Shown: piece by piece, positions 27,301 through 59,947 of the stretch | Position numbering within the stretch: position 1 is the first letter of the stretch | How the letters are laid out: each line of letters begins with the position of its first letter | Assembly (NCBI GenBank): GCA_937925855.1 | Contig: CALAMO010000014.1 | Coordinates: forward strand, 1-64,000 | Length of the DNA stretch: 64,000 nt | From: an uncultured Thiotrichaceae bacterium | Lineage (GTDB): Bacteria > Pseudomonadota > Gammaproteobacteria > Thiotrichales > Thiotrichaceae | Direction: 5' to 3' | Position numbers and translations under genes: made by a program | Notes under the pieces: model-generated | Databases searched by the model: none | Told to the model about the DNA's origin: nothing | What the model saw: only the letters and a program-made list of their open reading frames with translations

Positions 27301-28176
27301 TCACCGCCTACCCCCACCAAAATACTGCGTGGGCCGCACAAACGCCAGCAGCATCCCAGCCACGACCAGTAAAATCCCGATATACTCATACACATCCGAC
27401 TGATACCCCAGCAGCACATTCCCCACCACCGGTACCACGACTGGCGGCAGTGCGCTAAACAAGGTACCCAGCTGCGGCCCGAGAATACTCACCGTCACCC
27501 CATAGAAAAACACGGCCAGTACACCGACGATCACCCCCTGATACAAGAGCTGTAAAGTCAGCATATCAACCGTCACTTCCGGCCAGTCACGCCCAAAGGC
27601 ATACCACACGAGGTAAGGCGCAGACCCCAAGCTGGTATACAGGGCGGCTTGCAGCGGTTTAATCTTCCAGTAGCGCAAAAATACACCATAAAGCCCCCAC
27701 AGCGCGGCAGCGATTAAAAAGCAAAGGTCACCGAGCGCATAAGACCATGACAGCGGTGTTCCAACCCAGATCGTTCCCACGCCCCCCAGTAGCAACAGCA
27801 GTGCCAGCCAGTGGTCGCGACTAATCGCCTGCCCAAGTAGCGGTTTACTGAACAAGGCGGCCAACAGCGGTGACATGCCCAAGGAAATTGCAGCACTATG
27901 GGTGATCGGCGCAAACTGCAGGCCGGTGATATTAATCAGGCTAAACGGCACGCCCGCAAAGCAGCTCAGCACCAACAGGTGTTTCCAACATGGACGCTGG
28001 TGTTTTATATAAAACCATCCCAGCCAAGGTAGACTAATGAGCAAGCCACCGGCAACGCGCGCCGCATTAAGATCAAGGCTTGACCAGCCTGCATTCATCC
28101 CCAGCATCGAGACCGACGAATGCGCGCCCCAGATTAGCGCGCTGCACAAGCCCAGCAGAATAGCCAGCAGATACAC
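27301..28176 (-). CDS. EamA family transporter
   Basis: DMT-superfamily permease of 291 residues with about ten hydrophobic helices in two EamA halves, likely exporting an amino acid or other small metabolite. The GTG at 28176 overlaps the TAG of the racemase gene upstream (TAGTG), which suggests translational coupling and starts the protein exactly at its first helix (MYLLAILLGLCSALIWGAHS). Longer in-frame starts to 28218 or 28296 overlap the racemase frame and are less likely. Together with the racemase it forms a minus-strand unit divergent from the ThDP-enzyme/TRAP unit. Confidence 0.85.
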   Translation of the reverse strand: MYLLAILLGLCSALIWGAHSSVSMLGMNAGWSSLDLNAARVAGGLLISLPWLGWFYIKHQRPCWKHLLVLSCFAGVPFSLINITGLQFAPITHSAAISLGMSPLLAALFSKPLLGQAISRDHWLALLLLLGGVGTIWVGTPLSWSYALGDLCFLIAAALWGLYGVFLRYWKIKPLQAALYTSLGSAPYLVWYAFGRDWPEVTVDMLTLQLLYQGVIVGVLAVFFYGVTVSILGPQLGTLFSALPPVVVPVVGNVLLGYQSDVYEYIGILLVVAGMLLAFVRPTQYFGGGRR

Positions 28177-28916
28177 TAAGAAAAAGTACGGGGCGACAAT
28201 CCCGCCTGAAACCAGCATAAAAACGTATAAATACTGTATACCGGCAGTCCCAGCGCTCGCTGCAAATCGGCGGCGTAGGGCACCATATTGGTACATTCCA
28301 GCACCATCGCGCCCACTTCTGGGTATTGCGCCACTAAAGCCCGCCCCGCTGACAAAATATCCGCCCGCGACTGCGCCACATCCAGATACGGCTCATCATC
28401 CAGAATAGCACGGCTAAATTCCCGTCCGGCCTCCGTTCCCATCCGTGGAATATCCGACGGAATATTAACTGCGGCCAGATGCGCCGCCGTTAATGTCGCC
28501 CCAGAAATCGTTAATATCCCCACGCGCTGACCCGGTGGTAGAGTTGCCTGTATCATCGGTACCTGCAGCAGCGACGAACTCGCCACCGGCACCTTAAGCG
28601 CGGCGGCCAGTTTATCCTGATGCAGGCACATAAAACCGCAGTTCGTGGCAATGCCATCCGCCCCCAGCGCCACCAACTCCTCAGCCGCTGCAATAAACGC
28701 ATCCAATAAACCATCGGCCTGGTGCCGCACCACGCGATCCGGCGAAGCGCCGCGCACAATCTTATAATGTAGCGGAAACGGCCAGCTGCCCGCATGCCCA
28801 ATATCACCAGGAATACGCGGGAAACGGGTTTCCAGCATAAGCACCCCCAGCGCAGCGCCGTACACATTTTTACCGCCGCGCGCTAGGTTCGGATGATCCG
28901 GGTCAAAATATTGCAT
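28176..28916 (-). CDS. Aspartate/glutamate/hydantoin racemase family protein
   Basis: Protein of 246 residues in the Asp/Glu racemase superfamily, in which two cysteines act as the acid/base pair. The first lies in GADGIATNCGFMCLHQ near residues 84-99 and the second in GAMVLECTNMVPYAADLQ near 203-220. The usual small-molecule-binding turns (VASSSLLQVP and VGILTISG) are present. The substrate is unknown: it could be aspartate, a hydantoin or an arylmalonate-like acid. Divergence from a DadA-like oxidase and a TRAP importer suggests interconversion of enantiomers of an imported amino acid. Confidence 0.85.
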   Translation of the reverse strand: MQYFDPDHPNLARGGKNVYGAALGVLMLETRFPRIPGDIGHAGSWPFPLHYKIVRGASPDRVVRHQADGLLDAFIAAAEELVALGADGIATNCGFMCLHQDKLAAALKVPVASSSLLQVPMIQATLPPGQRVGILTISGATLTAAHLAAVNIPSDIPRMGTEAGREFSRAILDDEPYLDVAQSRADILSAGRALVAQYPEVGAMVLECTNMVPYAADLQRALGLPVYSIYTFLCWFQAGLSPRTFS

Positions 28917-29001
28917 TTGTCTTGCTCCTACTCGGTGAGAGTGGTTATCCGTTCGTCTGGCTCGGAGGCGTTTTACACATTCTGGAAAAAATGTTCCTAA
29001 C

Positions 29002-29009
29002 TGTATACA
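29002..29009. promoter_or_regulatory. Candidate operator in the racemase-ThDP divergent region
   Basis: Perfect palindrome TGTATACA in the 127-base divergent promoter region, 35 nt before the ThDP enzyme gene. It resembles the TTGTATACA half of the element at 40548-40568 and the TTGTnnACAA sites bound by FadR-type GntR proteins. TATACA may also serve as a -10 box. Confidence 0.4.
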
Positions 29010-29043
29010 CTTTTAGCCTCATTCATTACTTGAGTCTCATCCA

Positions 29044-30744
29044 ATGAGCAACCCAGCAGACACCCTCAACGGCGCAGAAGCCATGGTAAAATTGCTGGAC
29101 GGCTACGGTGTTACTCATCTATTCGGTTTATGCGGTGATACTACACTGCCGTTCTACGACGCACTCTATCGCCTCGAACATAATATTCAGCACATCTTAA
29201 CCCGCGACGAGCGCTGTGCGGCTTATATGGCCGATGGCTACGCGCGTGTTACCGGTAAAGTGGGCGTATGCGAAGGCCCAAGCGGCGGTGGTGCAACACA
29301 CATCCTACCCGGCGTGGTAGAGGCGAACGAATCCTCGGTGCCAGTGCTATCCATTACCTCTGACGTGGCGATTTCATCCATCGGTAAATACCCCCTGACC
29401 GAGCTAGACCAGCAGGCTTTATTCCGCCCGCTCACCCAATGGAATGGCGTCATTAATCACCCCGCACGCCTGCCCAGCATGGTGCGAGCAGCCTTTCGCG
29501 CCATGACCACCGGCACGCCGGGCGCGGCTCACCTCGGCTTTCCGTTCGATATGCAAAAAGCAGCGGTTGATCACAGCGACATTTGGGTGCAGGCCGAGCA
29601 TGGCCACTATCCGGCTTGGCGCAGCGGGCCTGAGCAAAGCCGTATTGAAGCGACGGTAGACGCACTGGCCGCCGCGAAACAGCCTGTGATTGTTTGTGGC
29701 GGTGGCGTGGTGCTGGCCGGGGCGGAAGCCGTCCTTAGCTCAATTGCTGAGCACCTCAATATCATCATTGCCACTACCATCAGCGGCCAGGGCAGCCTGT
29801 CAGATACTCACCCCAATTGTCTAGGTGTCATCGGCTCAAACGGTGGCGTCCCGGCGACCCGTCAAGTGATTGACGCAGCGGATCTGGTGATTTACCTGGG
29901 CTGTCGGGCAGGTTCAGTCACCACTGAACGCTGGCGTTACCCGTCGCGCACCGCGCGTATCATTCACTTCGACAGTAACCCCATGGCGATTTCTGCTAAC
30001 TATCAGACAGATATTGCCGTGGTCGGCGACTTATTACTGAGCCTCCAAGCTTTAAAACAGGCGCTGGAAGACGCCGGGGTCAGTGGACTAGATTTTGGCG
30101 GTGCGCACACCGTTGCCGCGACCAAAGAAAAGAAATTTGCGGTATTCGCTGCGCTAGCGGCGAGCACACAGACACCGATTTGCCCGGAGCGAGTCATCGC
30201 CGATTTAAATGCGGTTGCCCCGGACGACGCTATTATTGTGGCCGACCCCGGCACGCCCTGCCCCTATTTTTCAGCCTTTTACCGTACGCCCTATGCGGGG
30301 CGTCACTTCATCAGCAACCGCGCACATGGCGCGCTCGGCTATGCCCTATCAGCCGCCGTCGGCGTGCAGTTTGGCCGCCCGCAGCATAAAGTCATTGCCG
30401 CAATGGGTGACGGCAGCTTTGGCTTCACCGTCGGCGAACTGGAAACCATTGTGCGCTATAAATTACCCATCACCCTGCTAGTATTCTCCAACAGCGTTTA
30501 TGGCTGGATTAAGGCCGGACAGAAAAGCGGATTTGCTGAGCGTTATTATTCAGTGGATTTCAGCCAAACCGATCATGCCGCCATCGCCGCAGCCTACGGC
30601 ATTAAAAACTGGCGGGTGGAAGACCCGACTAAGCTGAAAGCCACGCTGCGGGCAGCCATTGAATACCCGGGGCCAACGCTGGTCGACATCATTACGCAGC
30701 CATTACAAGATGCAAACGCCCCGGTGAGCGAGTGGGTGGCGTGA
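29044..30744 (+). CDS. Thiamine diphosphate-dependent enzyme, unknown substrate
   Basis: Acetolactate-synthase-like ThDP enzyme of 566 residues with the three-domain PYR, middle, PP layout. The cofactor-activating Glu is in TRDERCAAYMADGYAR near residue 58. The middle domain has VIVCGGGVVLAGAE near 210-223. The PP domain has the ThDP/Mg motif GDGSFGFTVGELETIVRYK...NS near 455-480. The segment GPSGGGATHILPGVVEANE in the PYR domain marks a subfamily I cannot tie to a known reaction. It does not look like sulfoacetaldehyde acetyltransferase, benzoylformate decarboxylase or IlvB. It heads a plus-strand unit with a DadA-like oxidase and a TRAP transporter. A 2-oxo-acid made by the oxidase is a reasonable substrate. 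Confidence 0.85.
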   Translation: MSNPADTLNGAEAMVKLLDGYGVTHLFGLCGDTTLPFYDALYRLEHNIQHILTRDERCAAYMADGYARVTGKVGVCEGPSGGGATHILPGVVEANESSVPVLSITSDVAISSIGKYPLTELDQQALFRPLTQWNGVINHPARLPSMVRAAFRAMTTGTPGAAHLGFPFDMQKAAVDHSDIWVQAEHGHYPAWRSGPEQSRIEATVDALAAAKQPVIVCGGGVVLAGAEAVLSSIAEHLNIIIATTISGQGSLSDTHPNCLGVIGSNGGVPATRQVIDAADLVIYLGCRAGSVTTERWRYPSRTARIIHFDSNPMAISANYQTDIAVVGDLLLSLQALKQALEDAGVSGLDFGGAHTVAATKEKKFAVFAALAASTQTPICPERVIADLNAVAPDDAIIVADPGTPCPYFSAFYRTPYAGRHFISNRAHGALGYALSAAVGVQFGRPQHKVIAAMGDGSFGFTVGELETIVRYKLPITLLVFSNSVYGWIKAGQKSGFAERYYSVDFSQTDHAAIAAAYGIKNWRVEDPTKLKATLRAAIEYPGPTLVDIITQPLQDANAPVSEWVA

Positions 30745-30778
30745 TGCAGATACGGCGCCCCACCCTGGACGCTCAGTC

Positions 30779-32029
30779 ATGAAGCACGTCATCGTCATTG
30801 GCGCAGGCATCGTCGGCGTATCCACCACCCTCTGGCTCCAGCGCTATGGCTGTAAAGTCACGCTCATCGACCGTCAGATCAGCAAACAGGCCGCCAGCTA
30901 CGGCAACGCTGGTATTCTCGCGGCCTGTTCGATTATCCCCGTCACCGTCCCCGGCTTGATAGCTAAAGCGCCTAAGATGCTGTTCAGCCCGGAACAGCCA
31001 CTGTTTCTGCGCTGGTCTTATTTATTCACTTTATTACCGTGGCTGCGCCAATACCTAGCGCACTGCAATCAGGATGATGTCGAACGCATTGCCAAAGCGC
31101 TGATGCCACTGATTGGTGATAGCCTGCACCACCATCAGGCGCTGGCGCAGGGCACCCCAGCTGCCGCCTTTGTTAAACCCGATGACTACTCGTTTTTATA
31201 TGATAGCCGCGCCGCTTACACCGCAGATGCCATGGCGTGGCAGCTGCGGGAGGCCTACGGTTTCAGTTGGGACGTGCTGGAGGGTGACGCGGTCACAGCC
31301 TATGATCCCAACCTCAATGGCGGCGGCCAGGTACTGGTACGCATGCATCATCATGGCCGCATCCCCAAGCCGGGAGACTATGTGCAAGCACTCACTCAGC
31401 ATGCGCTGGCGCAGGGGGCGACGCTAATTCGCGGCGAAGTAGCTGAATTTATTAAGCGGGGGGAATGCATTAGCGGCGTCAAGACAGCGGATCAGCAGTC
31501 TTTTAGCGCGGATGCTGTAGCCGTGACCACCGGGGTCTGGTCACCGGGGCTGACACGGCAGCTGGGGATTCGTGTTCCAGTAGAAAGTGAACGCGGCTAT
31601 CATATCGAACTAATCAATCCCAACATTATGCCGCGCGCGCCCATTATGGTTGCCAGCGGTAAATTTGTAATGACGCCGATGGGCGACCGGCTACGCCTAG
31701 CGGGCATTGTTGAATTTGGCGGGCTGGAGGCAGAAGCATCATCAGCACCGCACACGCTATTGCGCAAGAAAGTGCGCGAGACCTTACCCGGTATTCAATG
31801 GGAGGATGAGACTAGTTGGCTGGGCCATCGCCCTGCCCCGGTAGACTCCATCCCTCTGATTGGTCAGATTGATCACCTGCCCGGACTCTATACTGGCTTT
31901 GGGCATCATCATATTGGCCTGACCGGTGGCCCAAGAACCGGCCAGCTGCTGGCACAGCTTATTTCAGGCCAGGAGCCTGCGGTGGATTTACAGCCTTATC
32001 GCCCCGATCGGTTTAATAATCGTGAGTAA
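30779..32029 (+). CDS. FAD-dependent amino acid oxidase/dehydrogenase, DadA-like
   Basis: D-amino-acid-dehydrogenase-type flavoprotein of 416 residues. The FAD dinucleotide fold VIGAGIVGVSTTLWLQRYG (residues 5-23) opens the protein, and the GLYTGFGHHHIGLTGGPRTGQLLAQLISG segment near 375-403 closes it, as in DadA. It probably oxidises an amine or D-amino acid to an imine/2-oxo acid and passes electrons to quinone. It lies 34 nt downstream of the ThDP enzyme gene and before the TRAP binding-protein gene, so its substrate is probably what the transporter brings in, or a stereoisomer made by the racemase. Confidence 0.88.
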   Translation: MKHVIVIGAGIVGVSTTLWLQRYGCKVTLIDRQISKQAASYGNAGILAACSIIPVTVPGLIAKAPKMLFSPEQPLFLRWSYLFTLLPWLRQYLAHCNQDDVERIAKALMPLIGDSLHHHQALAQGTPAAAFVKPDDYSFLYDSRAAYTADAMAWQLREAYGFSWDVLEGDAVTAYDPNLNGGGQVLVRMHHHGRIPKPGDYVQALTQHALAQGATLIRGEVAEFIKRGECISGVKTADQQSFSADAVAVTTGVWSPGLTRQLGIRVPVESERGYHIELINPNIMPRAPIMVASGKFVMTPMGDRLRLAGIVEFGGLEAEASSAPHTLLRKKVRETLPGIQWEDETSWLGHRPAPVDSIPLIGQIDHLPGLYTGFGHHHIGLTGGPRTGQLLAQLISGQEPAVDLQPYRPDRFNNRE

Positions 32030-32138
32030 TATGCCATGATTACTCGTACTGAACAGCGCATAATAAACTCAACGCTAATACACTGTATTCAGTATTCAGA
32101 GACTGCAAGGGTCTCATACATCCAATGGAGGAGTTAAC

Positions 32139-33113
32139 ATGAAAAAAGTCGCATTGGCCGCTGCCATGGCTACCGTTTGTTTCAGCACCACTAGCCTACA
32201 GGCCGGTGAAAAATGGGATATGCCAATGGCCTATTCAGCCACCAACTTCCACTCGGCCACTGGGGCGGAGTTTGCTAAGTGCATCACCACCGGCACCAGC
32301 GGTGATATTGAAGTCACCACTCACCCTTCCGGCTCACTGTTTAAGGGCGGTGATATTAAGCGCGCTATCCAAACCGGCCAAGCACCGATTGGTGAACGTC
32401 TACTCTCCGGCCATCAGAATGAAAATGCGCTGTTTGGTTTTGATTCTGTGCCGTTTCTTGCCACCTCATTTGATGACTCCGCCAAGCTGTGGGAAGCGGC
32501 AAAAGAACCGCTGACTAATCTGCTGGACGAACAGGGTCTGGTCTTACTGTATTCAGTCCCTTGGCCGCCGCAGGGCTTATATTTCAAGAAAGAAGTCAAC
32601 TCAGTGGCCGATATGAAAGGCATTAAATTCCGGTCTTATAATAATGCGACCGCACGCCTAGCGGAACTCACGGGCATGCTGCCGGTATCGATTGAGGCGG
32701 CGGAAATCTCACAGGCATTTGCCACCGGTGTCGCTGAAGCGATGATCTCTTCTGGCTCGACTGGCTATGACCGCAAAGTCTGGGAAAGCCTGACCCATTT
32801 TTATGAGGTTGATGCTTGGCTGCCGCGTAACTATGTGATGGTGAATAAAGACGTTTGGGGCAAAGTCAGTGAAGCCAACCAAAACGTCATTAAAGGCTGC
32901 GCACAAATGGCAGAATATGCCGGTAACTGGCGCGCCAAAGAGTACACCGGTTTCACGCTGAACGGCCTGCGTGCTGGTGGTATGACCGTTGGCCCTGCGG
33001 GCGAAGGTTTGGTGGGTGAGCTGAAAGCCATCGGCAAAACCATGACTGCGGAATGGCTGGAAGCGGCAGGTGATCAAGGTAAGGCGATTGTTGATGCGTT
33101 TAACGCGGAGTGA
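32139..33113 (+). CDS. TRAP transporter substrate-binding protein, DctP family
   Basis: Periplasmic TRAP binding protein of 324 residues with a Sec signal peptide (cleavage near LQAGEKWDM, about residue 24). Typical DctP features include KGIKFRSYNNATARLAELTGMLPVSI near 155-180 and the FATGVAEAMISSGSTGY loop near 190. Solute-binding Arg lies in the KFR segment. Excellent ribosome-binding site GGAGGAG 5 nt upstream. Substrates of this family are carboxylates, sulfonates or amino-acid-like acids; which one is not visible. A hairpin with a T-run follows the gene. Confidence 0.93.
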   Translation: MKKVALAAAMATVCFSTTSLQAGEKWDMPMAYSATNFHSATGAEFAKCITTGTSGDIEVTTHPSGSLFKGGDIKRAIQTGQAPIGERLLSGHQNENALFGFDSVPFLATSFDDSAKLWEAAKEPLTNLLDEQGLVLLYSVPWPPQGLYFKKEVNSVADMKGIKFRSYNNATARLAELTGMLPVSIEAAEISQAFATGVAEAMISSGSTGYDRKVWESLTHFYEVDAWLPRNYVMVNKDVWGKVSEANQNVIKGCAQMAEYAGNWRAKEYTGFTLNGLRAGGMTVGPAGEGLVGELKAIGKTMTAEWLEAAGDQGKAIVDAFNAE

Positions 33114-33163
33114 TAACGCACTTATTCACCAGCCACAAGATCCAACAGAAAAATCCCCCTCGC

Positions 33164-33192
33164 TCCCCCTTGGCTTAGGGGGATGCGTTTTT
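33164..33192 (+). terminator. Terminator or attenuator between dctP-like and dctQ-like genes
   Basis: TCCCCC pairs with GGGGGA around TTGGCTTA, followed by TGCG and five T. It lies in the 247-base gap inside the TRAP operon, so it would let the binding protein be made in excess over the membrane subunits. Its sequence nearly repeats the 26749-26769 palindrome. Confidence 0.65.
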
Positions 33193-33360
33193 GGCAAATA
33201 CTGAACTCTGCTGCAAACGCCCCTGCTTTAACATCGATGTCTGTTAACACGATGCCTTGGAGGGCTGGGTTGGATTTAACTTTCATTGACTTCTATCTAG
33301 AAGGGCAGCTTAAGCAAATAACCTTCAAGCAGATGAAGGTTTCCTCCCCCGGAGTCCTCA

Positions 33361-33903
33361 ATGCACAAACTACGCGCTTTCCTCGACCGCCTCTATCTAT
33401 TGAGCGGCATCATTGCTTCGCTCTTTCTGGTCGCTATTCTGTCACTCATCGTGCTGCAAATGTTGGCACGCTGGACAGGCGAAGTCTTCCCGGGCGCGCC
33501 AGATTATGCAGGTTATTGTATGGCGGCAGCTTCGTTTTTTGCCTTTGCCTACGCACTGAATCGCGGATCTCATATCCGGGTCAGTATTTTGCTTAATGCC
33601 GTAGGCGTTAAGATGCGACGTATTTTGAATATCTGGTGTTTTAGCATTGGCGCTGCGCTGGCCTGGTACTTCGTTTATTACGCCTGTCGTATGGTGTACT
33701 GGTCGTGGAAGTTTAAGGACATCAGCCAAGGACAGGATGCAACCCCACTATGGATTCCCCAGATGGCGATGGTGCTTGGAGTGACGATTTTTGCAATTGC
33801 GCTGACTGACCATTGGCTACATCTGTTTATTGACGGCGATCACCGCATCAACGCCGAAAAGATTAAAGCAACTGAACCGATGCCTGTAGCGAAGGAGGCC
33901 TGA
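33361..33903 (+). CDS. TRAP transporter small permease, DctQ family
   Basis: Small TRAP membrane subunit of 180 residues with four hydrophobic helices (SGIIASLFLVAILSLIVLQML, YAGYCMAAASFFAFAYAL, IWCFSIGAALAWYFVYYA and MAMVLGVTIFAIALTD). It forms the inner-membrane Na+-coupled complex with the following large subunit. The gene ends 2 nt before the DctM start; AAGGAGG in its end serves as the DctM ribosome-binding site. Confidence 0.93.
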   Translation: MHKLRAFLDRLYLLSGIIASLFLVAILSLIVLQMLARWTGEVFPGAPDYAGYCMAAASFFAFAYALNRGSHIRVSILLNAVGVKMRRILNIWCFSIGAALAWYFVYYACRMVYWSWKFKDISQGQDATPLWIPQMAMVLGVTIFAIALTDHWLHLFIDGDHRINAEKIKATEPMPVAKEA

Positions 33904-33905
33904 AC

Positions 33906-35222
33906 ATGGAACAACTCCACTTAATTGCGCTGTTTCTGTTCGTGCTGTTCCTGCTATTGGGCACCGGCGTCTGGGTTGGCCTCGCGCTGATGGGCGTTGC
34001 TTTTGTTGGCATGGAATTATTCACCACGCGCCCCTCGGGTGATGCCATGCTGACGACCATCTGGTCGGCTTCATCATCCTGGACGTTAACCGCCCTGCCG
34101 CTGTTTATCTGGATGGGGGAAATACTCTTCCGCACCCGGCTGTCAGAAGACATGTTTAAAGGCTTATCACCCTGGATGGCACGGCTGCCAGGGGGCTTGG
34201 TACATACGAATATTGTGGGCTGCACGGTCTTTGCGGCCGTGTCAGGGTCTTCTGCGGCGACGCTCACCACCGTGGGCAAGATGGCGATTCCTGAGCTGCG
34301 CAAACGCCAATACCCCGAGCATATGATTATCGGCACACTGGCTGGCGCGGCTACGCTTGGCCTAATGATCCCACCCTCGTTAACGCTGATTGTCTATGGC
34401 GTCACGATTAATGAGTCTATCTCTAAACTCTTTATCGCCGGGATTTTGCCAGGTTTAGTACTCGCGTTAATGTTTATGGCCTATGTGGCGGTTTACTCAA
34501 AATTGGGCAAAGATTTCACACCGCTGGAAGAACCGCGCCTAAGCCTGTGGGAAAAGATTAAAATCTCGCGCTTTCTGATTCCCGTACTGCTGCTGATTGC
34601 GGTGGTGATTGGCTCGATGTATGCCGGGTTTGCCACTGCCACTGAAGCCGCCGCTTTTGGGGTGATTGGCTCCCTCATCCTAGCAGCAGTACAAGGCTCC
34701 TTAAACTGGAAAACCTTTACCGATAGCCTAATGGGCGCTACCGCCACCTCGGCGATGATTGCGTTGATCCTGGCGGGCGCTGCGTTTCTATCACTCGCCA
34801 TGGGCTTTACCGGCCTGCCGCGTGGGCTGGCTGATTTAATTGCCTCACTGGACTTATCGCGCTTTGAGCTGCTGATGGTGCTCCTGGTGTTTTACATCAT
34901 CCTCGGCTGCTTCTTGGATGGCATTTCCTCGGTGGTACTCACCATGGCGATTGTAGAACCGATGATTCGTCAGGCCGGTATTGATGTGATTTGGTTCGGT
35001 ATTTTTATTGTGGTTGTGGTGGAAATGGCACAGATAACGCCGCCGATCGGGTTTAATCTCTTTGTGCTACAGGGGATGACAGATCACCAAATGGATTTTA
35101 TTGCCAAAGCGGCCATCCCAATGTTTCTCATCATGGTGCTGATGGTGTTCGTGCTGATTTGGGTACCAGAATTAGCGACTTATCTGCCGGATAATATGCG
35201 ATCTGCAACAAGCAGTGGGTAG
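33906..35222 (+). CDS. TRAP transporter large permease, DctM family
   Basis: Large TRAP subunit of 438 residues, about twelve membrane segments, carrying the Na+/substrate transport path. Family marks: GSSAATLTTVGKMAIPELRKRQYP near residues 112-135, the GAATLGLMIPPSLTLIVYGV segment near 140-160 and EMAQITPPIGFNLFVLQGM near 372-390. AAGGAGG lies 7 nt before the ATG. It is the last gene of the operon and is followed by a bidirectional hairpin. Confidence 0.96.
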   Translation: MEQLHLIALFLFVLFLLLGTGVWVGLALMGVAFVGMELFTTRPSGDAMLTTIWSASSSWTLTALPLFIWMGEILFRTRLSEDMFKGLSPWMARLPGGLVHTNIVGCTVFAAVSGSSAATLTTVGKMAIPELRKRQYPEHMIIGTLAGAATLGLMIPPSLTLIVYGVTINESISKLFIAGILPGLVLALMFMAYVAVYSKLGKDFTPLEEPRLSLWEKIKISRFLIPVLLLIAVVIGSMYAGFATATEAAAFGVIGSLILAAVQGSLNWKTFTDSLMGATATSAMIALILAGAAFLSLAMGFTGLPRGLADLIASLDLSRFELLMVLLVFYIILGCFLDGISSVVLTMAIVEPMIRQAGIDVIWFGIFIVVVVEMAQITPPIGFNLFVLQGMTDHQMDFIAKAAIPMFLIMVLMVFVLIWVPELATYLPDNMRSATSSG

Positions 35223-36454: not shown

Positions 36455-37804
36455 TCAAAACTCTCGCCCAGCCCGCAGTTCCTTCCACCGCATATAACCA
36501 TTCGCCCCCAACCACATCAAAGGCTCTGGCATTAACTTCTTCGGCGGCGCTTCCGGCTGATAATCCGGCAGCAGCGATGCAGACTTCGCCACTCCCATGG
36601 CCTGCTCCGCCGCTATAATCCCAGCCACAGTGCCCTTAGCGGTACCCAGCCCATTCTGACAGCAGGCCGCATAGACACCCTCTGCCACTTGACCCAGTGC
36701 AGAAACACCGTTCAAGCTCAAACACAGCCGCCCACCCCAGCAATAGGCCATCTCAACCTGTTTTAACATCGGGAAACGCGCCTCAAAACCACGCCGATGA
36801 GTACGCGCGACTGAGTCCAGGCGACCCTCCGGTACGGCCATTGTGGGATCATAGCTAGAGCGGCTGCGAATAATAATGCGATTTCCACCCACGCCTGAGA
36901 TGCGCCGCACCGTCGTACCCAAAGGATCTGCGGGGGTAAAAGCCCACTGCGCTTCCCCCCCCAGGCGCTGACACTCATCAACGGTCAGGGCGCGCGTCAT
37001 CGAAGCATAGGTGAAGACATGCAACAAACGCCGCGCGAAATACCCAAACTGCTGGATCAGGCCATTCACCGCCAAAATCACGGTCTTCGCCTGGACCAAC
37101 CCCTGCGGCGTCTGCACCTGCCAATAGCCCTGGCGCTGCGTGCAAGCCGTCACGGGCGAATACTCGTACAAGTCGACCCCGCGCTGCTGCTGCAAACCTG
37201 CCGCAAAACCGCGAATGAACTGCGCGGGCTGCAGCATTGCGGTTCCGGGTGTCCATAGTCCGCTTTGATAATACGCAATCCCGGTGAGCGCTTTCATATC
37301 GGCGGCATCCAGCAGCTCATAGGTCTCATCTAAGCCGGCCAAATGCCGTGCATAGTCCAAATTGTGCTGCCGGCCTTTATCAGTGGCAGCGGCGTTAATC
37401 TTACCGCTGGCGACAAAGGCTTCAGCGGGCATGGCATAGTCCTGTGCTGCCTGTGCCGCAAAGCGAATGGCAGCTCGATTCAGCGCCGTCTGGCGCCGGT
37501 CATTGTCCAGCGACTCGCCCGCATAATCATCCGAAGACAAATCGTGCGGCAGATCAATCATAAAGCCTGAATTACGCCCCGCTGGGCCTTCTGCGACACC
37601 ACGCCCTTCAAGAATAATAGTGCGCGCCTCAGGCTGTAGCTGGTGCAGCCGCCGTGCCGCCGCTAAACCGGCAAAGCCCGCTCCAACCACTAGATAATCC
37701 GCATGCTGCTCACCCACCAGTGTTGGATAGGGTGCCCGTGCAGGCAAAATCGCATCCCAAGCCGCAGGCCCAGGGTCAGGCGGCATCGCTCCCAACTCTG
37801 CCAT
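36455..37804 (-). CDS. FAD-dependent oxidoreductase, PuuB/OrdL type
   Basis: DAO-family flavoprotein of 449 residues resembling gamma-glutamylputrescine oxidase. The FAD fold YLVVGAGFAGLAAARRLHQLQP lies near residues 36-57, followed by GPAGRNSGFMIDLPHDL near 74-90, a segment where this group binds FAD. The C-terminus has AYCWGGRLCLSLNG and CQNGLGTAKGTVAGIIAAE. It probably oxidises a primary or secondary amine or cyclic imino acid to an aldehyde or imine. It lies downstream of the aldehyde dehydrogenase and DapA-like genes, which could take the products further. Confidence 0.87.
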   Translation of the reverse strand: MAELGAMPPDPGPAAWDAILPARAPYPTLVGEQHADYLVVGAGFAGLAAARRLHQLQPEARTIILEGRGVAEGPAGRNSGFMIDLPHDLSSDDYAGESLDNDRRQTALNRAAIRFAAQAAQDYAMPAEAFVASGKINAAATDKGRQHNLDYARHLAGLDETYELLDAADMKALTGIAYYQSGLWTPGTAMLQPAQFIRGFAAGLQQQRGVDLYEYSPVTACTQRQGYWQVQTPQGLVQAKTVILAVNGLIQQFGYFARRLLHVFTYASMTRALTVDECQRLGGEAQWAFTPADPLGTTVRRISGVGGNRIIIRSRSSYDPTMAVPEGRLDSVARTHRRGFEARFPMLKQVEMAYCWGGRLCLSLNGVSALGQVAEGVYAACCQNGLGTAKGTVAGIIAAEQAMGVAKSASLLPDYQPEAPPKKLMPEPLMWLGANGYMRWKELRAGREF

Positions 37805-37942
37805 TAAGCAAACACCTTGACAGTCCTAAACATGAAAAGGCAGAGGCTAATGACCTGGAAGCCAGTAGGCCTGAGCGCCAGCGAATTTACGCCCGTTAAC
37901 AAGTGTTGTTACTCCCCTGCTTGCCTCGTTCTAACTGCACCA

Positions 37943-39457
37943 TTAGTCAACCGCTTCTTCCGGCGCACGATCCGATAAATCAATCCAGATGGTTTTCACT
38001 TCGGTATACTGGTCATGCGCATGCAGTCCATTATCACGCCCGCCAAAGCCGGACTGTTTATAGCCCCCAAACGGCGTGCTAATATCTCCCTCCCCGTAGC
38101 AGTTAACGGTCACCGTCCCAGCGCGCACTGCCCGTGCTGCCCGCAGCGCCTTCTTGCCATTGGCACTAAAGACACTGGCGGTCAGACCATAGTCCGTATC
38201 ATTCGCCACCGCGATGGCTTCTTCCACACTGCCAACAGTTATCACCGCCAGAATCGGCCCAAAGATTTCTTCCCGTGCCAGCTTGCTGTCAGGCTGCACA
38301 CCGTCAATCAACGTCGGCATCACGTAACACCCTGCGGAGCGCTCCCCCCCAGCAATAATTTTCTCGCCCGCAGCCAAGGTATCCAGATAATGACACACCT
38401 TAGTAAAGTGTTCGGCATCCACCAGCGCACCCAAATGATGGGCAGGGTTCAAAGGGTCACCAGTGCGCCAATCACGCAAATGCGCACTGATTTTCGACAG
38501 CAGCGCATCTTTGATCCCGGCCTGGACAATCAGGCGTGAATTTGCCGAGCAGTTCTCACCCATATTCCAGAACGCGGCATTGACCACATGCGCCGCGACC
38601 AAATCCAGCTCTTCGGCATCATCTAACACAATCGCCGGATTCTTGCCGCCGCATTCCAGCACCACCTTTTTCAAATTAGAATCCGCAGCATAGCGCAGGA
38701 AGCGCCGCCCTGTTTCGGTCGAACCCGTGAAGGACACCATATCAACATCCGGGTGCAGCCCAAGCGGCTCGCCCACATCCGGCCCCAATCCCGGCACCAC
38801 ATTCAATACGCCACGCGGCACCCCTGCCGCCAGCGCCAATTCGGCGACACGTAAGGCAGTTAGACTGGTTTGCTCCGCCGGTTTTACAATCACTGAATTA
38901 CCCGCCGCCAGCGCCGGTGCAATCTTCCAAGCCAGCATCAGCAGCGGAAAATTCCACGGCAGTACGCAGCCGACCACGCCCACCGGCTCACGTACAATCA
39001 GTGCAATCGCCTCATCCCCCACCGGCGCACTCTGATCATAAATTTTATCAATTGCCTCGGCGTGCCAAAGCAGCGTATTAATCGTCTCAGGAATATCAAC
39101 CGTCGCACAATCACGCACTGGCTTACCCGAATCCAGACTTTCCAGCACCGCCAGCTCGTGACGATTACGCTTAATCAGTTTAGCTAGCCTAATCAATACC
39201 GCTTTGCGTGCCGCCGGGTGCAGTTTGCTCCAGCGTCCCTGCTCAAACGCTTCCCGCGCTTTGACGACGGCGAAATCGATATCCCGCGCCGTACAGGCAG
39301 CAATTTGTGCCAGCGGCTCGCCCGTCGCCGGGTTCACGCTGGCAAAGGTTGCGCCAGCCTGGGCGGGTTGAAAATGCCCATCAATAAACGCTGTTGACGC
39401 TAAGGTCAGCGATGCCGCCAGCGCCTGATAGTCCTCATAGCTCAGTAAATCAGACAC
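37943..39457 (-). CDS. NAD(P)+-dependent aldehyde dehydrogenase, PuuC-like
   Basis: Aldehyde dehydrogenase of about 504 residues. Seen: VVGCVLPWNFPLLMLAWKIAPALAAGN near 153-179 (cofactor binding), the general base Glu in VVLECGGKNPAIV near 260, catalytic Cys in NMGENCSANSRL near 295, and EEIFGPILAV near 390. Pattern is closest to PuuC/betaine-aldehyde-type enzymes. GTG 39457 was chosen because GGGAGG lies 9 nt upstream; ATG 39466 abuts that ribosome-binding site. The start overlaps the end of the DapA-like gene by 8 nt, so the two are translationally coupled. Confidence 0.9.
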   Translation of the reverse strand: MSDLLSYEDYQALAASLTLASTAFIDGHFQPAQAGATFASVNPATGEPLAQIAACTARDIDFAVVKAREAFEQGRWSKLHPAARKAVLIRLAKLIKRNRHELAVLESLDSGKPVRDCATVDIPETINTLLWHAEAIDKIYDQSAPVGDEAIALIVREPVGVVGCVLPWNFPLLMLAWKIAPALAAGNSVIVKPAEQTSLTALRVAELALAAGVPRGVLNVVPGLGPDVGEPLGLHPDVDMVSFTGSTETGRRFLRYAADSNLKKVVLECGGKNPAIVLDDAEELDLVAAHVVNAAFWNMGENCSANSRLIVQAGIKDALLSKISAHLRDWRTGDPLNPAHHLGALVDAEHFTKVCHYLDTLAAGEKIIAGGERSAGCYVMPTLIDGVQPDSKLAREEIFGPILAVITVGSVEEAIAVANDTDYGLTASVFSANGKKALRAARAVRAGTVTVNCYGEGDISTPFGGYKQSGFGGRDNGLHAHDQYTEVKTIWIDLSDRAPEEAVD

Positions 39458-40526
39458 GACCCACATCCTCCCGCTGCGCTAGCCTTAACGGCCCGCCGTC
39501 ATTTTCATCATAGGTTTGCTGTTTGCGTTCCCGGCCATCAAAGCGGCTTTTAGGTTGGCGCTTTCCCGCCTCATCAGTCGCTGAATCCAAGCGCTGCGAA
39601 CCCATCACACCCGCTACCGGCAGCGTGTCGCCCATAATATGTTGTAGTGTACGGTCCATGACTCGAATCACCTGTTCCAGGTCACGCTTCTCATCTTTGT
39701 TCAGCGGCTGCAGCGGTTTACGCGGTGGCCCAACTGGCATCCCCCGCACGCTGAGGCCATATTTAATGCACTGCACGAACTTACCCCCCTGCTCCAACAC
39801 CCGCATTAGCGGCAGCATTGCCATCATAATGCGGCGGCCTTTCTCAAAGTCACCTTCCAGCCGACAGGCCTGATACAGGGCAAGATGCGCCTGCGGTGCG
39901 AAGTTCGAACCCGCACACACCCAACAGGACGCCCCCCAGGCAAAAAACTCCAGCGCCTGATCATCCATGCCACAGCCGAGCTGGATATGCGGATAATCAC
40001 GCGCCAATAGGTGCAGGCGGTTAATATCACCGGAGCTTTCTTTAATCGCAGTAAAATTGGGTGAGCGCCCCACCCGATCTAAGTATTCCTCACCCATCTC
40101 CACGCCCATCCTGCCCGGATAGTTGTACAGCATAATGGGTAGATTAGCCGCCCGGTCAATTGCCAGGGCATGCAGGGCATTTTCATGCTCAGTCGGCACC
40201 GCATAAGGCGGTGTCGCAACTAAGAGCGCATCAGCGCCAATCTTGGCCGCCGCGACGGCATAGTCCACGGAATCTTCAGTGCGCATCGCCCCGGTACCCA
40301 CAATCAGCGGCACACGCTGGTTGATGATAGCGTGAAACACCTGCATCAGATGCAGGCGCTCTTCCCGACTTTGGGCATAATACTCGCCCGTAGTTCCCGC
40401 CAGAATCAGACCGTGAACACCGCTAGCAATGAGGTGTTCAATCACCGCCTCCAGCATCGGCTCATTAATGCTGCCGTCTGCTTCATGCGGGGTGATAACC
40501 GGCGTATAAATACCCTCAAATTTCAT
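39450..40526 (-). CDS. DapA-like lyase with C-terminal extension
   Basis: Dihydrodipicolinate synthase/N-acetylneuraminate lyase family protein of 358 residues. Substrate-binding GTTGEYY lies near residues 44-50, the Tyr in LYNYPGRMG near 133-141, and the Schiff-base Lys in FTAIKESSGDINR near 158-170. The family core ends near residue 300; about 55 further residues, highly charged (QRLDSATDEAGKRQPKSRF onward), have no counterpart I know and look disordered. By context (amine oxidase, aldehyde dehydrogenase, betaine-type ABC transporter), a hydroxyproline-type deaminase/dehydratase is an attractive but unproven role. It leads a minus-strand operon. Confidence 0.88.
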   Translation of the reverse strand: MKFEGIYTPVITPHEADGSINEPMLEAVIEHLIASGVHGLILAGTTGEYYAQSREERLHLMQVFHAIINQRVPLIVGTGAMRTEDSVDYAVAAAKIGADALLVATPPYAVPTEHENALHALAIDRAANLPIMLYNYPGRMGVEMGEEYLDRVGRSPNFTAIKESSGDINRLHLLARDYPHIQLGCGMDDQALEFFAWGASCWVCAGSNFAPQAHLALYQACRLEGDFEKGRRIMMAMLPLMRVLEQGGKFVQCIKYGLSVRGMPVGPPRKPLQPLNKDEKRDLEQVIRVMDRTLQHIMGDTLPVAGVMGSQRLDSATDEAGKRQPKSRFDGRERKQQTYDENDGGPLRLAQREDVGRV

Positions 40527-40850
40527 CGCTGTCTGCGCACCCTAAATTTGTATACATATTGTGTACAATAATGGATTTACCCTGCCTTGCCAACTATCTG
40601 ACCTGAATGATTTATCAATGATTTCAGCTTTTAACAGCCCATCTTTACTAATGCAGACATTCGGTATACAAAAATCCAGCTTATCGCTTGAGTTTGCTTT
40701 TCACTAAATGCTATGGTGTAAGCCATCCTGGCCTTGGGAGCCTTGATTATCCAAAGGAAACACTATTTTGGAGGAGGCGGTTGTCGCCTGACTAGCGATA
40801 GTAACGTCAAAATAACCCCTGTACATTTTTTAAAAATTGAGGAGAAAACC
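40527..40850. other. Divergent control region between DapA-like and ABC-transporter operons
   Basis: 324 bases without a gene. It holds the operator-like element at 40548-40568, a further GGTATACAAA near 40673, a weak plus-strand promoter pair (TTGAGT at 40688 and TATGGT at 40712), and a small hairpin AGGCG/CGCCT at 40775-40789 just after a GGAGGAGG sequence that has no open frame. The ribosome-binding site GAGGAG before TTG 40851 closes the region. Confidence 0.6.
40548..40568. promoter_or_regulatory. GntR-type operator, two near-palindromes
   Basis: Two adjacent elements, TTGTATACAT and TTGTGTACAA, form a 21-bp near-palindrome located 22 nt before the DapA-like start codon. Both fit the TTGTnnACAA pattern used by many FadR-type GntR regulators. 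The position would let a repressor block the minus-strand promoter. Confidence 0.55.
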
Positions 40851-41867
40851 TTGAAAACACCGAGTATGTTTAAGAAAGCCGCTCTGGGTCTGGCGCTTTT
40901 AGCGGGCTCTAGTGGCGCAATGGCCGCCTGTGGCAACATTCAGATCGCAGAATGGAACTGGGCTTCCGGCGAACTGATGGCTAACGTTGACAAAATCATT
41001 CTGGAAGAAGGCTTCGACTGTAAAGTTGAATTGGTACCGGGCGCAACGACCACGACCTTTGCCTCCATGAACGAAAAAGGCAAGCCTGATCTGGCGGGCG
41101 AATTATGGATTAATGCGGTACGTGAACCACTAGGTAAAGCATTCGCTGCTAAGACCTTGCACTCTGTGAACGACGGCCCAATCACTGAATTAGGTGAAGG
41201 CTGGTGGATTCCACCTCAAACCGCTGAGAAGCACCCTGAACTGAAGACCGTTATGGACGTATTGAAGCGCCCCGACCTGTTCCCAGACAAAGAAGACCCA
41301 TCAAAAGGCGCTTTCATTGGCTGTCCTGCGGGCTGGGGTTGTCAGCTAGCAAACATTAACTTGTTCCGTGCGTTCGAAATGGAAAAGAAAGGCTGGAAAC
41401 TGGTTGATCCGGGTTCTGCTGCCGGTCTTGACGGTTCAATGACTAAAGCGGTTGAGCGTGGTGCCAACTGGTTCGGCTACTACTGGTCACCTACCGCGAT
41501 GATTGGTAAGCACAAAATGGTTAAACTGCCATTTGGCGTACCCTTCGCCGGTAAAGAAAACTGGGATGGCTGTATTGCTAAAGCTGAACAGGACTGTGCG
41601 GATCCTAAGCCTTCTGCCTGGACTGATTCTGAAGTACACAGTGTGGTTACTAAGAAGTTTATGGAAACGGCTGGTCCAGACGTTATGGGTTATATCAATA
41701 AGCGCGTATTCCCTGGCCAAACCATGAATGAAATGCTGGTCTACATGGGCGATGAGCAAGCGGGTGGCGAAGATGCAGCGTATAAATTCCTGGCTGACCA
41801 TGAAGATCTGTGGAGCGAATGGGTAACCGAAGCAGTTGCTGCCAAGGTTAAAGCAGGCATCAAGTAA
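40851..41867 (+). CDS. Betaine/proline-type ABC transporter substrate-binding protein
   Basis: ProX/OpuAC-like periplasmic binding protein of 338 residues with a signal peptide ending near GAMAACG (about residue 27). It binds quaternary amines through an aromatic box; visible candidates are the Trp-rich stretches IAEWNWASGEL, EGWWIPPQ and GANWFGYYWSP. Paired cysteines (CPAGWGCQ) and C-rich segments in the second lobe may form disulfides. TTG 40851 was chosen because GAGGAG lies 6 nt upstream; ATG 40866 is 21 nt away. A strong terminator follows the gene before the permease gene. Confidence 0.92.
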   Translation: MKTPSMFKKAALGLALLAGSSGAMAACGNIQIAEWNWASGELMANVDKIILEEGFDCKVELVPGATTTTFASMNEKGKPDLAGELWINAVREPLGKAFAAKTLHSVNDGPITELGEGWWIPPQTAEKHPELKTVMDVLKRPDLFPDKEDPSKGAFIGCPAGWGCQLANINLFRAFEMEKKGWKLVDPGSAAGLDGSMTKAVERGANWFGYYWSPTAMIGKHKMVKLPFGVPFAGKENWDGCIAKAEQDCADPKPSAWTDSEVHSVVTKKFMETAGPDVMGYINKRVFPGQTMNEMLVYMGDEQAGGEDAAYKFLADHEDLWSEWVTEAVAAKVKAGIK

Positions 41868-41987
41868 GACACTGCTAATTAATTCGATACCTAACGGGAA
41901 ATACATAGATTGACTCCCCGGGGCATAAAGGCCTTCGTCTTGCTGCCAGTAGGGTATTGAACACATCGAGCAGTTAGAAAAAAACGG

Positions 41988-42018
41988 CCCACTGGTCACT
42001 TGCTGGTGGGCTTTTTTA
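41988..42018 (+). terminator. Rho-independent terminator inside the betaine ABC operon
   Basis: GCCCAC (41988-41993) pairs with GTGGGC (42007-42012), followed by six T and preceded by an A-run. It stands between the binding-protein gene and the permease gene, so most transcripts would stop after the binding protein. Confidence 0.8.
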
Positions 42019-42039
42019 CATCTTATTTAGAGACTTGTT

Positions 42040-42942
42040 ATGGATTGGTTAATTAATTTTTTAACAGAATTTCCACAGATGTCCCGTCAAGGCTTGCGGG
42101 ATATGAAAAAAATGATTGATGGTAGTTACCGGGAGTTTTCGCGTGAATATGGGGAAGCCATTGAATCCTTTTTTGATCCACTCTTGTGGTTTCTGGTCAA
42201 ATTCGAAGAATTGCTGCAAATAACACCCTGGCCGGTTGTTATTCTAGTGGTGGCGGGCTTAGCTTGGTGGGGCGCACGTAGCTGGACTATCGTGATTGGA
42301 AGTATTGTGTCCTTCTTGCTGATTGGGTGGTTTGGTATGTGGGAAGACACCATGTCCACACTAGCCATTGTATCGGTTTCAACCTTTATTTGTATTGCAC
42401 TGGGTATCCCGCTGGGCATACTGATGGCGCGTTCTGACCGGCTTCAGTCCATGGTGACACCGGTGCTCGACATTATGCAGACGATCCCCGCCTTCGTTTA
42501 CCTTATTCCCGTGGTCATGCTATTGGGCATTGGTAAAGTGCCGGGCCTGCTTTCTGTTTGTATCTATGCGATTCCACCGATTGTGCGCCTAACTAATCTG
42601 GGTATTCGTCTGGTTGAGAAAGAGGCCTTGGAGGCCGCAGATGCCTTCGGTGCCAGCTACAAACAGCGTTTATTTGGCGTACAAATCCCGCTGGCGCTGC
42701 CCAATATTTTTGCTGGAGTAAACCAGACAATTATGATGGCACTATCGATGGTCGTGATTGCTTCGATGATTGGGGTCGCGGGCTTGGGTGTTCCGGTACT
42801 GAAGTCCATTTCTAATCAGTATCTGGCATTAGGTATGATGAACGGTCTGGCGATCGTGGTCCTGGCGATTATCTTCGACCGCGTCTCACAGAGCTTTGGC
42901 CTGCGCTTACAGAAACACCGCCATGGAGCACAACATGACTGA
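42040..42942 (+). CDS. Betaine/proline-type ABC transporter permease (ProW-like)
   Basis: Membrane subunit of 300 residues, about six helices, starting with a soluble N-terminal arm of about 60 residues as in ProW. The ABC permease coupling segment, an EAA-type loop, is EKEALEAADAFGASYKQRLFGVQIPLALPNIFAGVNQT near residues 188-225. It overlaps the ATPase gene by 8 nt. Works with the preceding binding protein and following ATPase. Confidence 0.95.
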   Translation: MDWLINFLTEFPQMSRQGLRDMKKMIDGSYREFSREYGEAIESFFDPLLWFLVKFEELLQITPWPVVILVVAGLAWWGARSWTIVIGSIVSFLLIGWFGMWEDTMSTLAIVSVSTFICIALGIPLGILMARSDRLQSMVTPVLDIMQTIPAFVYLIPVVMLLGIGKVPGLLSVCIYAIPPIVRLTNLGIRLVEKEALEAADAFGASYKQRLFGVQIPLALPNIFAGVNQTIMMALSMVVIASMIGVAGLGVPVLKSISNQYLALGMMNGLAIVVLAIIFDRVSQSFGLRLQKHRHGAQHD

Positions 42943-43984
42943 TATTAAGATTAAGATTGAAAATCTGTACAAGATTTTTGGCCCTAAACCTAAGTCTGTG
43001 CTGCAACGGGTTAAAGACGGCATGTCCAAACAGGATTTGTTAGAACAGCACGGACACGTACTGGGCCTGAAAGACATCAATATTGACATTCCAGCACAAG
43101 GAATTTCAGTCATCATGGGCCTTTCTGGCTCGGGCAAATCTACCCTGATCCGCCACATCAATCGCCTGATTGAGCCAACGGCAGGCAAGATGATCGTTGA
43201 TGGTGATGACGTCTTAGCGATGTCTAAGAATAAGCTGATTGATTTCCGTCGCCACAAAGCGTCTATGGTATTCCAGAAATTTGGTCTACACGTACACCGC
43301 ACCGTGGCTGAGAATGTGGCTTATGGCTTGGTGGTTCAGGGCACGCCGCTAAAAAAAGCCAAAGAGCAAAGTCACAAGTGGCTGGATCGTGTCGGTTTGG
43401 CCGGTTTTGAGGAGCATTATCCTTCACAGCTGTCCGGCGGCATGCAGCAGCGTGTCGGCCTGGCGCGTGCGCTGGCAACGGATGCAGAAATTCTGCTCAT
43501 GGATGAAGCTTTCTCAGCACTTGACCCGCTAATCCGCACCGATATGCAGGATGTCTTACTCGACCTACAGGAAGAACTGCACAAAACCATCGTGTTCATC
43601 ACCCATGATCTCGATGAAGCGCTGCGTATTGGTGATACTATCGCCATCTTACGTGACGGTGCGGTCATTCAGCAGGGCGACCCTCAGGACATCATCATGC
43701 ATCCAAATGACGACTACATCGTCGATTTCATTCAGGATATCAATCGTGGCCGCGTCATTCGTCTGCGGACGTTGATGTCAGAGGGCACCGCAATCAACGG
43801 CTTGGCATTAAACCAAAATATGGTGCTGGAAGAAGCGCTGCCACTGGTGGCGGATACCGCTGAGAAAGCCTGTAACGTGGTTGATGATGCCAATAACATC
43901 CTGGGCAGCATCGATCTAAATCAAGTCATCACTGGGCTAGCACGACCCAAAGTGGAAACTAACCCAGAAAACCGTTATCGGTAA
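42935..43984 (+). CDS. Betaine/proline-type ABC transporter ATP-binding protein (ProV-like)
   Basis: ATPase of 349 residues. Walker A GLSGSGKST near residues 61-69, Q-loop MVFQKFGLH near 110, signature LSGGMQQRVGLARALA near 165-180 and Walker B ILLMDEAFSALDP near 188-200. The tail after residue 280 looks like one CBS-like domain (NGLALNQNMVLEEAL then CNVVDDANNILGSIDL), as in ProV/OpuA. Start ATG 42935 has GGAG 6 nt upstream inside the end of the permease gene. A large hairpin follows the stop. Confidence 0.96.
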   Translation: MTDIKIKIENLYKIFGPKPKSVLQRVKDGMSKQDLLEQHGHVLGLKDINIDIPAQGISVIMGLSGSGKSTLIRHINRLIEPTAGKMIVDGDDVLAMSKNKLIDFRRHKASMVFQKFGLHVHRTVAENVAYGLVVQGTPLKKAKEQSHKWLDRVGLAGFEEHYPSQLSGGMQQRVGLARALATDAEILLMDEAFSALDPLIRTDMQDVLLDLQEELHKTIVFITHDLDEALRIGDTIAILRDGAVIQQGDPQDIIMHPNDDYIVDFIQDINRGRVIRLRTLMSEGTAINGLALNQNMVLEEALPLVADTAEKACNVVDDANNILGSIDLNQVITGLARPKVETNPENRYR

Positions 43985-59827: not shown

Positions 59828-59947
59828 TATGCTAAAGTCTGTTTCCTGTTTGGAGCAGACGATTAATCATTTTCCAGCGGGCTATTGCAACGCTCCCATG
59901 ACTATTGAGCGCCGGTGTCCGCACTCGTTAACAAGAGGAGATACACG

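Follow-up and report, generated by a model that had tools for sequence, protein, structure and literature searches.

A TRAP-linked racemase, flavoprotein and thiamine diphosphate enzyme locus of an uncultured Thiotrichaceae bacterium, possibly serving oxidative use of pyroglutamate

Glutamate and glutamine give rise to pyroglutamate (5-oxoproline) spontaneously; the compound is probably found everywhere, and its use by bacteria has been little studied, according to passages of PMC13274462. Parts of the same source cover the closest described systems: the Bordetella pertussis TRAP solute-binding protein DctP7 binds 5-oxoproline with a dissociation constant of 0.3 µM (see also passages of PMC11668362), a 5-oxoprolinase gene lies near the dctP genes of that organism, and the PxpABC pathway is encoded in Corynebacterium glutamicum by pxpTABC together with a GntR regulator. 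Here we analyse a locus at positions 27301-35222 of a 64,000-nucleotide stretch of DNA (the window) from an uncultured Thiotrichaceae bacterium, in which the genes of a TRAP importer stand beside those of a racemase-family protein, a flavin adenine dinucleotide (FAD)-dependent protein of the DAO family and a thiamine diphosphate (ThDP)-dependent enzyme. We propose, with a probability of about 0.55, that this locus serves the import and oxidative degradation of pyroglutamate or of a very similar five-ring compound. All genes named in the original prediction were found, in the order described there; those that matter most to the argument are the following.

28176..28916, minus strand: Asp/Glu/hydantoin racemase family protein (PRK07475 subfamily), proposed racemase or epimerase
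29044..30744, plus strand: ThDP-dependent enzyme (Pfam TPP_enzyme N, M and C)
30779..32029, plus strand: FAD-dependent DAO-family ("DadA-like") protein, proposed D-amino- or imino-acid dehydrogenase (Pfam DAO 166.9 bits)
32139..33113, plus strand: DctP, TRAP solute-binding protein, assigned to the pyroglutamate-binding subfamily by phmmer and structure matches
33361..33903, plus strand: DctQ, TRAP small permease (Pfam DctQ 66.5 bits)
33906..35222, plus strand: DctM, TRAP large permease (TIGR00786 373.9 bits, cut-off 268.45)

The substrate class is suggested by DctP, whose best phmmer matches are 6wgm (E 2e-109), 2pfz (1e-77) and 2pfy (7e-69), followed by an entry at 5e-15. It is 55% identical to 6WGM, and a model built from a 28-row alignment (pLDDT 86.8) was matched by VIA-align to 6WGM at Z 44.6 and to B. 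pertussis DctP7 and DctP6 at 44.3 and 44.2, with the next family at 36.0. DctP6 and DctP7 are reportedly the subject of Rucktooa et al. 2007. The title of 6WGM names a TRAP solute binding protein "specific for pyroglutamate", and titles of related entries read "binding pyroglutamic acid". Judged by its sequence and its model, DctP can be named a putative member of the pyroglutamate-binding DctP subfamily, and the substrate class, given as an amino-acid-like acid in the original prediction, most likely narrows to pyroglutamate or a close look-alike. Sulfonates, also considered there as ligands, find no support: the cysteate racemase CuyB, and with it a cysteate route, was rejected at only 24.9 bits against a cut-off of 190, no search specific to sulfonate genes being made. 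DctP6, DctP7 and the pyroglutamate-binding subfamily are treated in passages of PMC13274462, PMC5812351, PMC11668362 and PMC11574862, the last of which mentions tryptophan and tyrosine for the pockets of such binding proteins. Trp142, Tyr148, Tyr167 and Trp227 are invariant in the 28-row alignment, their equivalence to pocket residues not being established.

Comparison of 66 close with 10 distant DctP rows gave 63 columns that are at least 90% conserved in both groups. Nearly all close rows are DAO-linked, and eight of the ten distant rows are accompanied by oxoprolinase genes. The protein resembles 6WGM and the B. pertussis DctPs in fold, in identity (36-55%) and in a whole-chain match at Z 44, and 5-oxoprolinase genes lie beside its relatives as one does in B. 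pertussis. Unlike those proteins, however, it is linked to DAO, racemase and ThDP genes. Among the matches listed in open-licence PMC text for TRAP transport in Roseobacter or Ruegeria, the term pyroglutamate was absent.

The association with 5-oxoprolinase was followed in 149 genomes of one family, from which 31 regions with a DctP relative were chosen by hand (26 from genomes lacking the ThDP gene), along with one further region with the ThDP gene and no DctP. 5-Oxoprolinase genes occur in 15 of the 31 regions (Pxp genes in 10, an OplAH-like protein in 5), namely in 8/10 with distant DctPs versus 7/21 with close ones. In locus L109, PxpA exceeds its family cut-off (334.5 versus 226) and PxpC and PxpB fall below theirs; the other Pxp assignments are by homology to seeds from L109 and L133. 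No PxpA, PxpB or PxpC gene was found in the window. PxpABC-like genes do lie elsewhere in the source genome, PxpA at 290 bits and PxpB and PxpC by homology. PxpA was found in 28 of 31 ThDP-bearing genomes tested (source genome included) as against 30 of 48 others, and the module therefore adds to the known route instead of replacing it; the same count speaks against the ThDP enzyme as a substitute for PxpABC. The locus shares with C. glutamicum pxpTABC, as covered in passages of PMC13274462, the presumed substrate and, in many relatives, a GntR regulator. It differs from pxpTABC in having a TRAP transporter together with a racemase, an FAD dehydrogenase and a ThDP enzyme, and no Pxp gene on the spot. 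On a plasmid of Pseudooceanicola algae (L158), a DAO relative and a TTT transporter accompany hydantoinase/oxoprolinase A and B and ureidoglycolate lyase.

The ThDP enzyme, DctP and the racemase all have relatives at 53-82% identity, so that chance is no concern. Of 398 genomes sampled from the phylum, 10, the source included, hold a ThDP ortholog (58-65% identity), and so do 35 plasmid records. A scan of named genomes gave 574 candidates, of which the best 80 were taken as ThDP loci, many being near relatives of each other (e.g. Achromobacter, Ruegeria); the top match among them, at 77%, comes from an uncultured Granulosicoccaceae, and the titles are mostly alphaproteobacterial or Achromobacter. 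One record titled Gammaproteobacteria (L030) holds ThDP and DAO genes, TRAP genes and a gene for a muconate-cycloisomerase-like (MR/MLE, hereafter MLE) protein of the enolase superfamily. Partners were counted in the 47 of the 80 loci with at least 7.5 kilobases on both sides: GntR in 37, the racemase in 28, DAO in 27, DctP in 23, MLE in 19, a TTT binding protein in 12 and an amino-acid ABC ATPase in 5. Where DAO and dctP genes are both present (61 loci), the DAO gene is in 59 cases the immediate upstream neighbour of dctP and has the same orientation. TRAP, racemase, DAO and ThDP are in this way joined as four families in one module, mainly in alphaproteobacterial records. The GntR and MLE genes so common beside relatives are absent beside the set in the window, and the top MLE match in the whole source genome is only 27% identical.

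Co-occurrence was assessed in the 149 genomes with close DctPs defined as the 50 places, of 78 listed, with E <= 1e-100. They were present in 27 of 30 ThDP genomes versus 23 of 119 others (Fisher p 7e-13) and in all 20 MLE genomes. This is not mere adjacency, because in some genomes the ThDP gene sits far from the TRAP genes (L143/L144, L145/L146). A seemingly conserved cluster ("C9") was discarded as an open reading frame antisense to the ThDP gene. Searches of open-licence PMC text for the enolase, dehydrogenase, racemase and ThDP gene set returned nothing on point, and for the old locus tags SPOA0420-0425 of R. pomeroyi (guessed tags) no paper. Some ThDP neighbourhoods hold further genes. 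L084 (2668-9366) encodes the oxamate carbamoyltransferase AllG, a CoA-ligase-domain protein, an amino-acid-kinase-family protein, a class V aminotransferase and an M20 peptidase; L070 holds the same clusters, so that this ureide link, with its allantoin-type genes, amounts to one related pair. Near the ThDP and DAO genes of L071 (12798-14883), a locus without TRAP genes, lie genes for an aspartate-dehydrogenase-like protein and aconitase X; in L102 (4707-5969), likewise without TRAP, aconitase X was assigned by a gene cluster in common with L071.

The ThDP enzyme has three TPP domains and belongs to the acetolactate synthase/pyruvate oxidase superfamily. Its features include Asp32, Glu56, Arg288, GDGS at 455-458 and GWIKAGQ at 487-493; Glu56 and GDGS are invariant, as is GPSGGGAT in an 18-row alignment that includes the row of the window. 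The PYR-domain motif GPSGGGATHILPG pointed out earlier was located in the N-terminal TPP domain (Pfam domain 9-126). The original prediction could not match the enzyme to a known reaction, and neither could we, as it stays below the cut-off in all 25 NCBIfam models listed (59 matched). Rejected candidates are biosynthetic acetolactate synthase (TIGR00118, 382.5 bits versus 538), sulfoacetaldehyde acetyltransferase (PRK07525, 268.6 versus 620), glyoxylate carboligase (PRK11269, 287.8 versus 791) and the AruI-type 5-guanidino-2-oxopentanoate decarboxylase (PRK07524, 297 versus 500). Nor was high identity to a characterised ThDP enzyme seen, there being no close solved relative; the nearest is BbmA (PDB 8x3x), which is homologous over the whole length (E 5e-69) but has neither Arg288 nor the GWIK motif.

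Two acetolactate synthases encoded elsewhere in the source genome score 835.0 and 637.8 bits on TIGR00118, and IolD is encoded there too. Position 32 is acidic in the enzyme of the locus, in a sister family described below and in a third ThDP protein from L128, whereas both synthases have glycine; pyruvate decarboxylase presumably has an aspartate near this position. Two motifs also set these three groups apart: LTELD or LTGVD replaces the AFQE(V/I)D of the synthases, and GWI(K/R) replaces their GMVR/GLVR. Arg288 is invariant in the main family and aligns with an arginine of the synthases, which we take to bind the keto-acid carboxylate in acetolactate synthase; the L128 protein lacks it. In a 23-row tree a branch with 99/99 support separates the three groups from the other rows. 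These number only eight, several of them long-branched like L128, and represent neither AruI nor carboligase nor BbmA. As judged from sequence, the enzyme thus falls in a putative clade for which no characterised member was found here, and for which the locus offers a concrete substrate class. The L128 protein (2113-3825, genome G474) is 32.6% identical to that of the window, passes no cut-off among the 25 models listed, and is encoded in a run of TRAP, DAO, MLE and racemase genes.

The racemase-family protein is a member of the Asp/Glu/hydantoin racemase superfamily by profile (NCBIfam NF005679 309.3 bits, cut-off 231; Pfam 38.9 bits, cut-off 31), by fold and by both cysteines, Cys93 and Cys208, which are invariant in a 31-row alignment. 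Its model (pLDDT 91.5) finds its best structural matches in allantoin racemases (Z 18.2, 18.1, 17.9 and 17.8) and a hydantoin racemase (17.1). Aspartate racemase (16.4), glutamate racemase (14.9) and arylmalonate decarboxylase (14.2) come next, gaps of about one unit not being decisive. A preference for five-ring amides, if the model is a guide, would suit pyroglutamate. A racemase of the same family is also found on a Chelatococcus plasmid (L161, 1-8681) together with flavin dehydrogenase subunits, an aldehyde dehydrogenase, a DapA-like protein and an amino-acid ABC transporter, occupying the place where a hydroxyproline pathway would have its epimerase. The FAD protein scores 195.1 bits on the DadA model PRK00711 (cut-off 383) and is accordingly placed in the DAO superfamily but not named DadA.

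Searches with the DAO and racemase proteins led to the sister ThDP family, which is 38% identical and resides on plasmids of Rhizobium, Agrobacterium, Shinella, Bosea, Azospirillum and Tistrella. Among 15 loci examined from 18 plasmid records (all but H112, H115 and H123; some genes of L173, L174 and L175 are split over frames), 11 have the racemase, 3 have MLE, none has both and 1 has neither, and DAO is present in 14. As annotated, the operon reads solute-binding protein, racemase, permease, ATPase, DAO and ThDP enzyme in A. pusense and Bosea, and solute-binding protein, permease, ATPase, MLE, DAO and ThDP enzyme in Tistrella and Shinella. Two unrelated folds for alpha-proton chemistry hence fill one role, which makes a good case that racemisation precedes flavin oxidation. 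In Thioclava, the position after MLE and DAO that others give to the ThDP gene is taken by two enzymes acting on 2-oxo acids, a D-2-hydroxyacid dehydrogenase and an aminotransferase. The sister operons and Thioclava back the order originally proposed, from TRAP import through stereochemical conversion and oxidation to a 2-oxo acid to the ThDP step. The interchange also helps to name proteins annotated as "Asp/Glu racemase family" or "enolase-like" in marine and soil genomes. In L169 (9911-17201) and L176 the sister operon faces genes for HglS, YdiJ, an aminotransferase and piperideine-6-carboxylate dehydrogenase; HglS, YdiJ and the latter dehydrogenase of L169 each exceed their profile cut-off, and these genes of 2-aminoadipate catabolism offer hints of the amino acid used by the sister family.

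Taking these data together, we envisage four steps. A pyroglutamate-class ligand would enter via the TRAP transporter, as suggested by homology, fold and gene context. The Asp/Glu/hydantoin-type protein may then invert the alpha carbon from L to D, a role consistent with its fold, its cysteines and the interchange with MLE. The FAD protein, by its family and constant position, would dehydrogenate the D form to an imine or 2-oxo acid and presumably pass the electrons to the respiratory chain; were D-pyroglutamate itself oxidised, the 2-oxo acid would be 2-oxoglutaramate. Finally, the ThDP enzyme would take the 2-oxo acid, most simply decarboxylating it to an aldehyde. For the L enantiomer, ring opening to glutamate by the PxpABC 5-oxoprolinase, whose genes lie elsewhere in the genome, is available in addition. 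Racemisation, flavin oxidation and ThDP-dependent decarboxylation of a 2-oxo acid also make up the D-arginine dehydrogenase/AruI route. The likeness lies in the order of reactions, whereas the ThDP enzyme of the window remains well short of the AruI-type model. It is tempting, if somewhat unlikely to hold in full, to speculate on an ATP-independent oxidative pyroglutamate pathway in which the lactam is racemised and dehydrogenated by the flavoprotein to 2-oxoglutaramate, a new ThDP clade decarboxylates or transfers the product, and the sister clade does likewise for an ABC-imported amino acid. Searches of open-licence PMC text for links between D-pyroglutamate and a racemase or 5-oxoprolinase, between 2-oxoglutaramate and ThDP, and between pyroglutamate and muconate cycloisomerase or a racemase returned nothing on point.

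Several observations weigh against oxidative degradation of pyroglutamate by this set. Proteins of the DAO type oxidise amines, a reaction to which a lactam nitrogen is poorly suited, and the DAO protein may therefore act on another compound, such as D-glutamate formed after ring opening or a D-imino acid. Thirty-five columns distinguish close from distant DctPs, so that the ligand or its handedness may differ. Given how often ThDP-bearing genomes encode PxpA, a route for pyroglutamate exists in them already; in L141 and L142, from two genomes, ThDP and Pxp genes even lie within one run. Twelve of the 47 full-flank ThDP loci, all but one from Achromobacter, have a TTT binding protein and no racemase, DAO or TRAP gene, four lack racemase, MLE, DAO, DctP, TTT and ABC genes alike, and in 17 the racemase and MLE occur together, which interchange in one slot does not explain. 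The co-occurrence statistic ignores kinship among the genomes, and a racemase relative sits within the hydroxyproline-like cluster of L161.

The competing explanations are not mutually exclusive, and the confidences we attach to them overlap with that of the reading proposed here. Salvage alone is a possible but doubtful one: the racemase, or MLE elsewhere, would turn D- into L-pyroglutamate, PxpABC would open the ring, the FAD protein would oxidise D-glutamate to 2-oxoglutarate, and the ThDP enzyme would serve a separate acid imported by varied transporters. In keeping with this, PxpBCA genes lie in one run with MLE, DAO and TRAP genes in L126, L127, L141, L142, L144 and L146, the source genome has PxpABC-like genes, the racemase, GntR and ThDP genes form a separable module in L143, L145, L148 and L150, and in the loci of Achromobacter the ThDP gene is accompanied by GntR and a TTT protein only, without DAO and racemase. 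By contrast, the ThDP gene tracks the close DctP even when not adjacent (27/30), and the sister ThDP gene shares one operon with DAO and racemase. That the nearest structure, 6WGM, is titled specific for pyroglutamate and that oxoprolinase genes recur beside TRAP genes likewise makes it rather unlikely that the true substrate is a proline-like imino acid (of the hydroxyproline, proline or pipecolate type) also accepted by the DctP subfamily, with the racemase as imino-acid epimerase, DAO as D-imino-acid dehydrogenase and the ThDP enzyme acting on an open-chain amino-2-oxo acid. The case for it is drawn from neighbourhoods: in L085 a true 4-hydroxyproline epimerase (PRK13971 586 bits, cut-off 376) is encoded together with the ThDP enzyme, the racemase and DAO, L161 places the racemase relative with flavin and aldehyde dehydrogenases and a DapA-like protein, Agrobacterium sister loci adjoin piperideine-6-carboxylate dehydrogenase and HglS, and L071 has aconitase X, whose known members include cis-3-hydroxyproline dehydratase.

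We consider it very improbable that the ThDP gene encodes an ordinary acetolactate synthase or a sulfoacetaldehyde acetyltransferase and that its neighbourhood is incidental. The acetolactate synthase model gives the enzyme its top family score, yet that score lies below the cut-off, the genome's own synthases score much higher and differ at the signature positions, and no regulatory-subunit gene was identified among the neighbours. The shortfall on the sulfoacetaldehyde model and the conserved neighbourhood argue in the same direction. We favour import and oxidative degradation of pyroglutamate, or of its close look-alike, as the function of the locus.

Three further features complete its layout.

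27301..28176, minus strand: EamA-type exporter (Pfam EamA 93.5 bits; revised start GTG at 28176, 291 amino acids)
28917..29043: intergenic spacer separating the racemase gene from the divergently oriented ThDP gene; a regulatory role is suggested by its position only
33164..33183, plus strand: terminator-like hairpin between dctP and dctQ (consensus match only)

The exporter gene was correctly recognised in the original prediction, but its start at 28296, overlapping the racemase gene by 121 nucleotides, has to be revised. The racemase stop codon and a GTG overlap as TAGTG at 28176, so that 27301-28176 is the more likely extent of the gene, which is probably coupled to that of the racemase. 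No EamA homolog was found in the related loci clustered by gene content; the exporter, counted before as part of the set, does not belong to its conserved portion and is probably a lineage-specific partner. A consensus scan listed no promoter-like site in 28917-29043 and gave 19 terminator-like sites in the region versus 9.4 expected; the hairpin at 33164-33183, as a consensus match only, could lower permease expression.

Downstream, window positions 36455-43984 apparently form a second, separate catabolic cluster with an FAD oxidase (AmaA-like at 101.8 bits, below cut-off), an aldehyde dehydrogenase, a DapA-like protein (185.3 bits versus a cut-off of 206) and an ABC transporter of the ProXWV/ChoXWV type. 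Positions 51379-61747 encode a xanthine-dehydrogenase-like pair and an ABC transporter, recognised by eye from N-termini, and at 61238 lies a gene of the ureidoglycolate lyase family (PRK13395 160.3 bits, cut-off 160); this part of the window is likely concerned with purine use.

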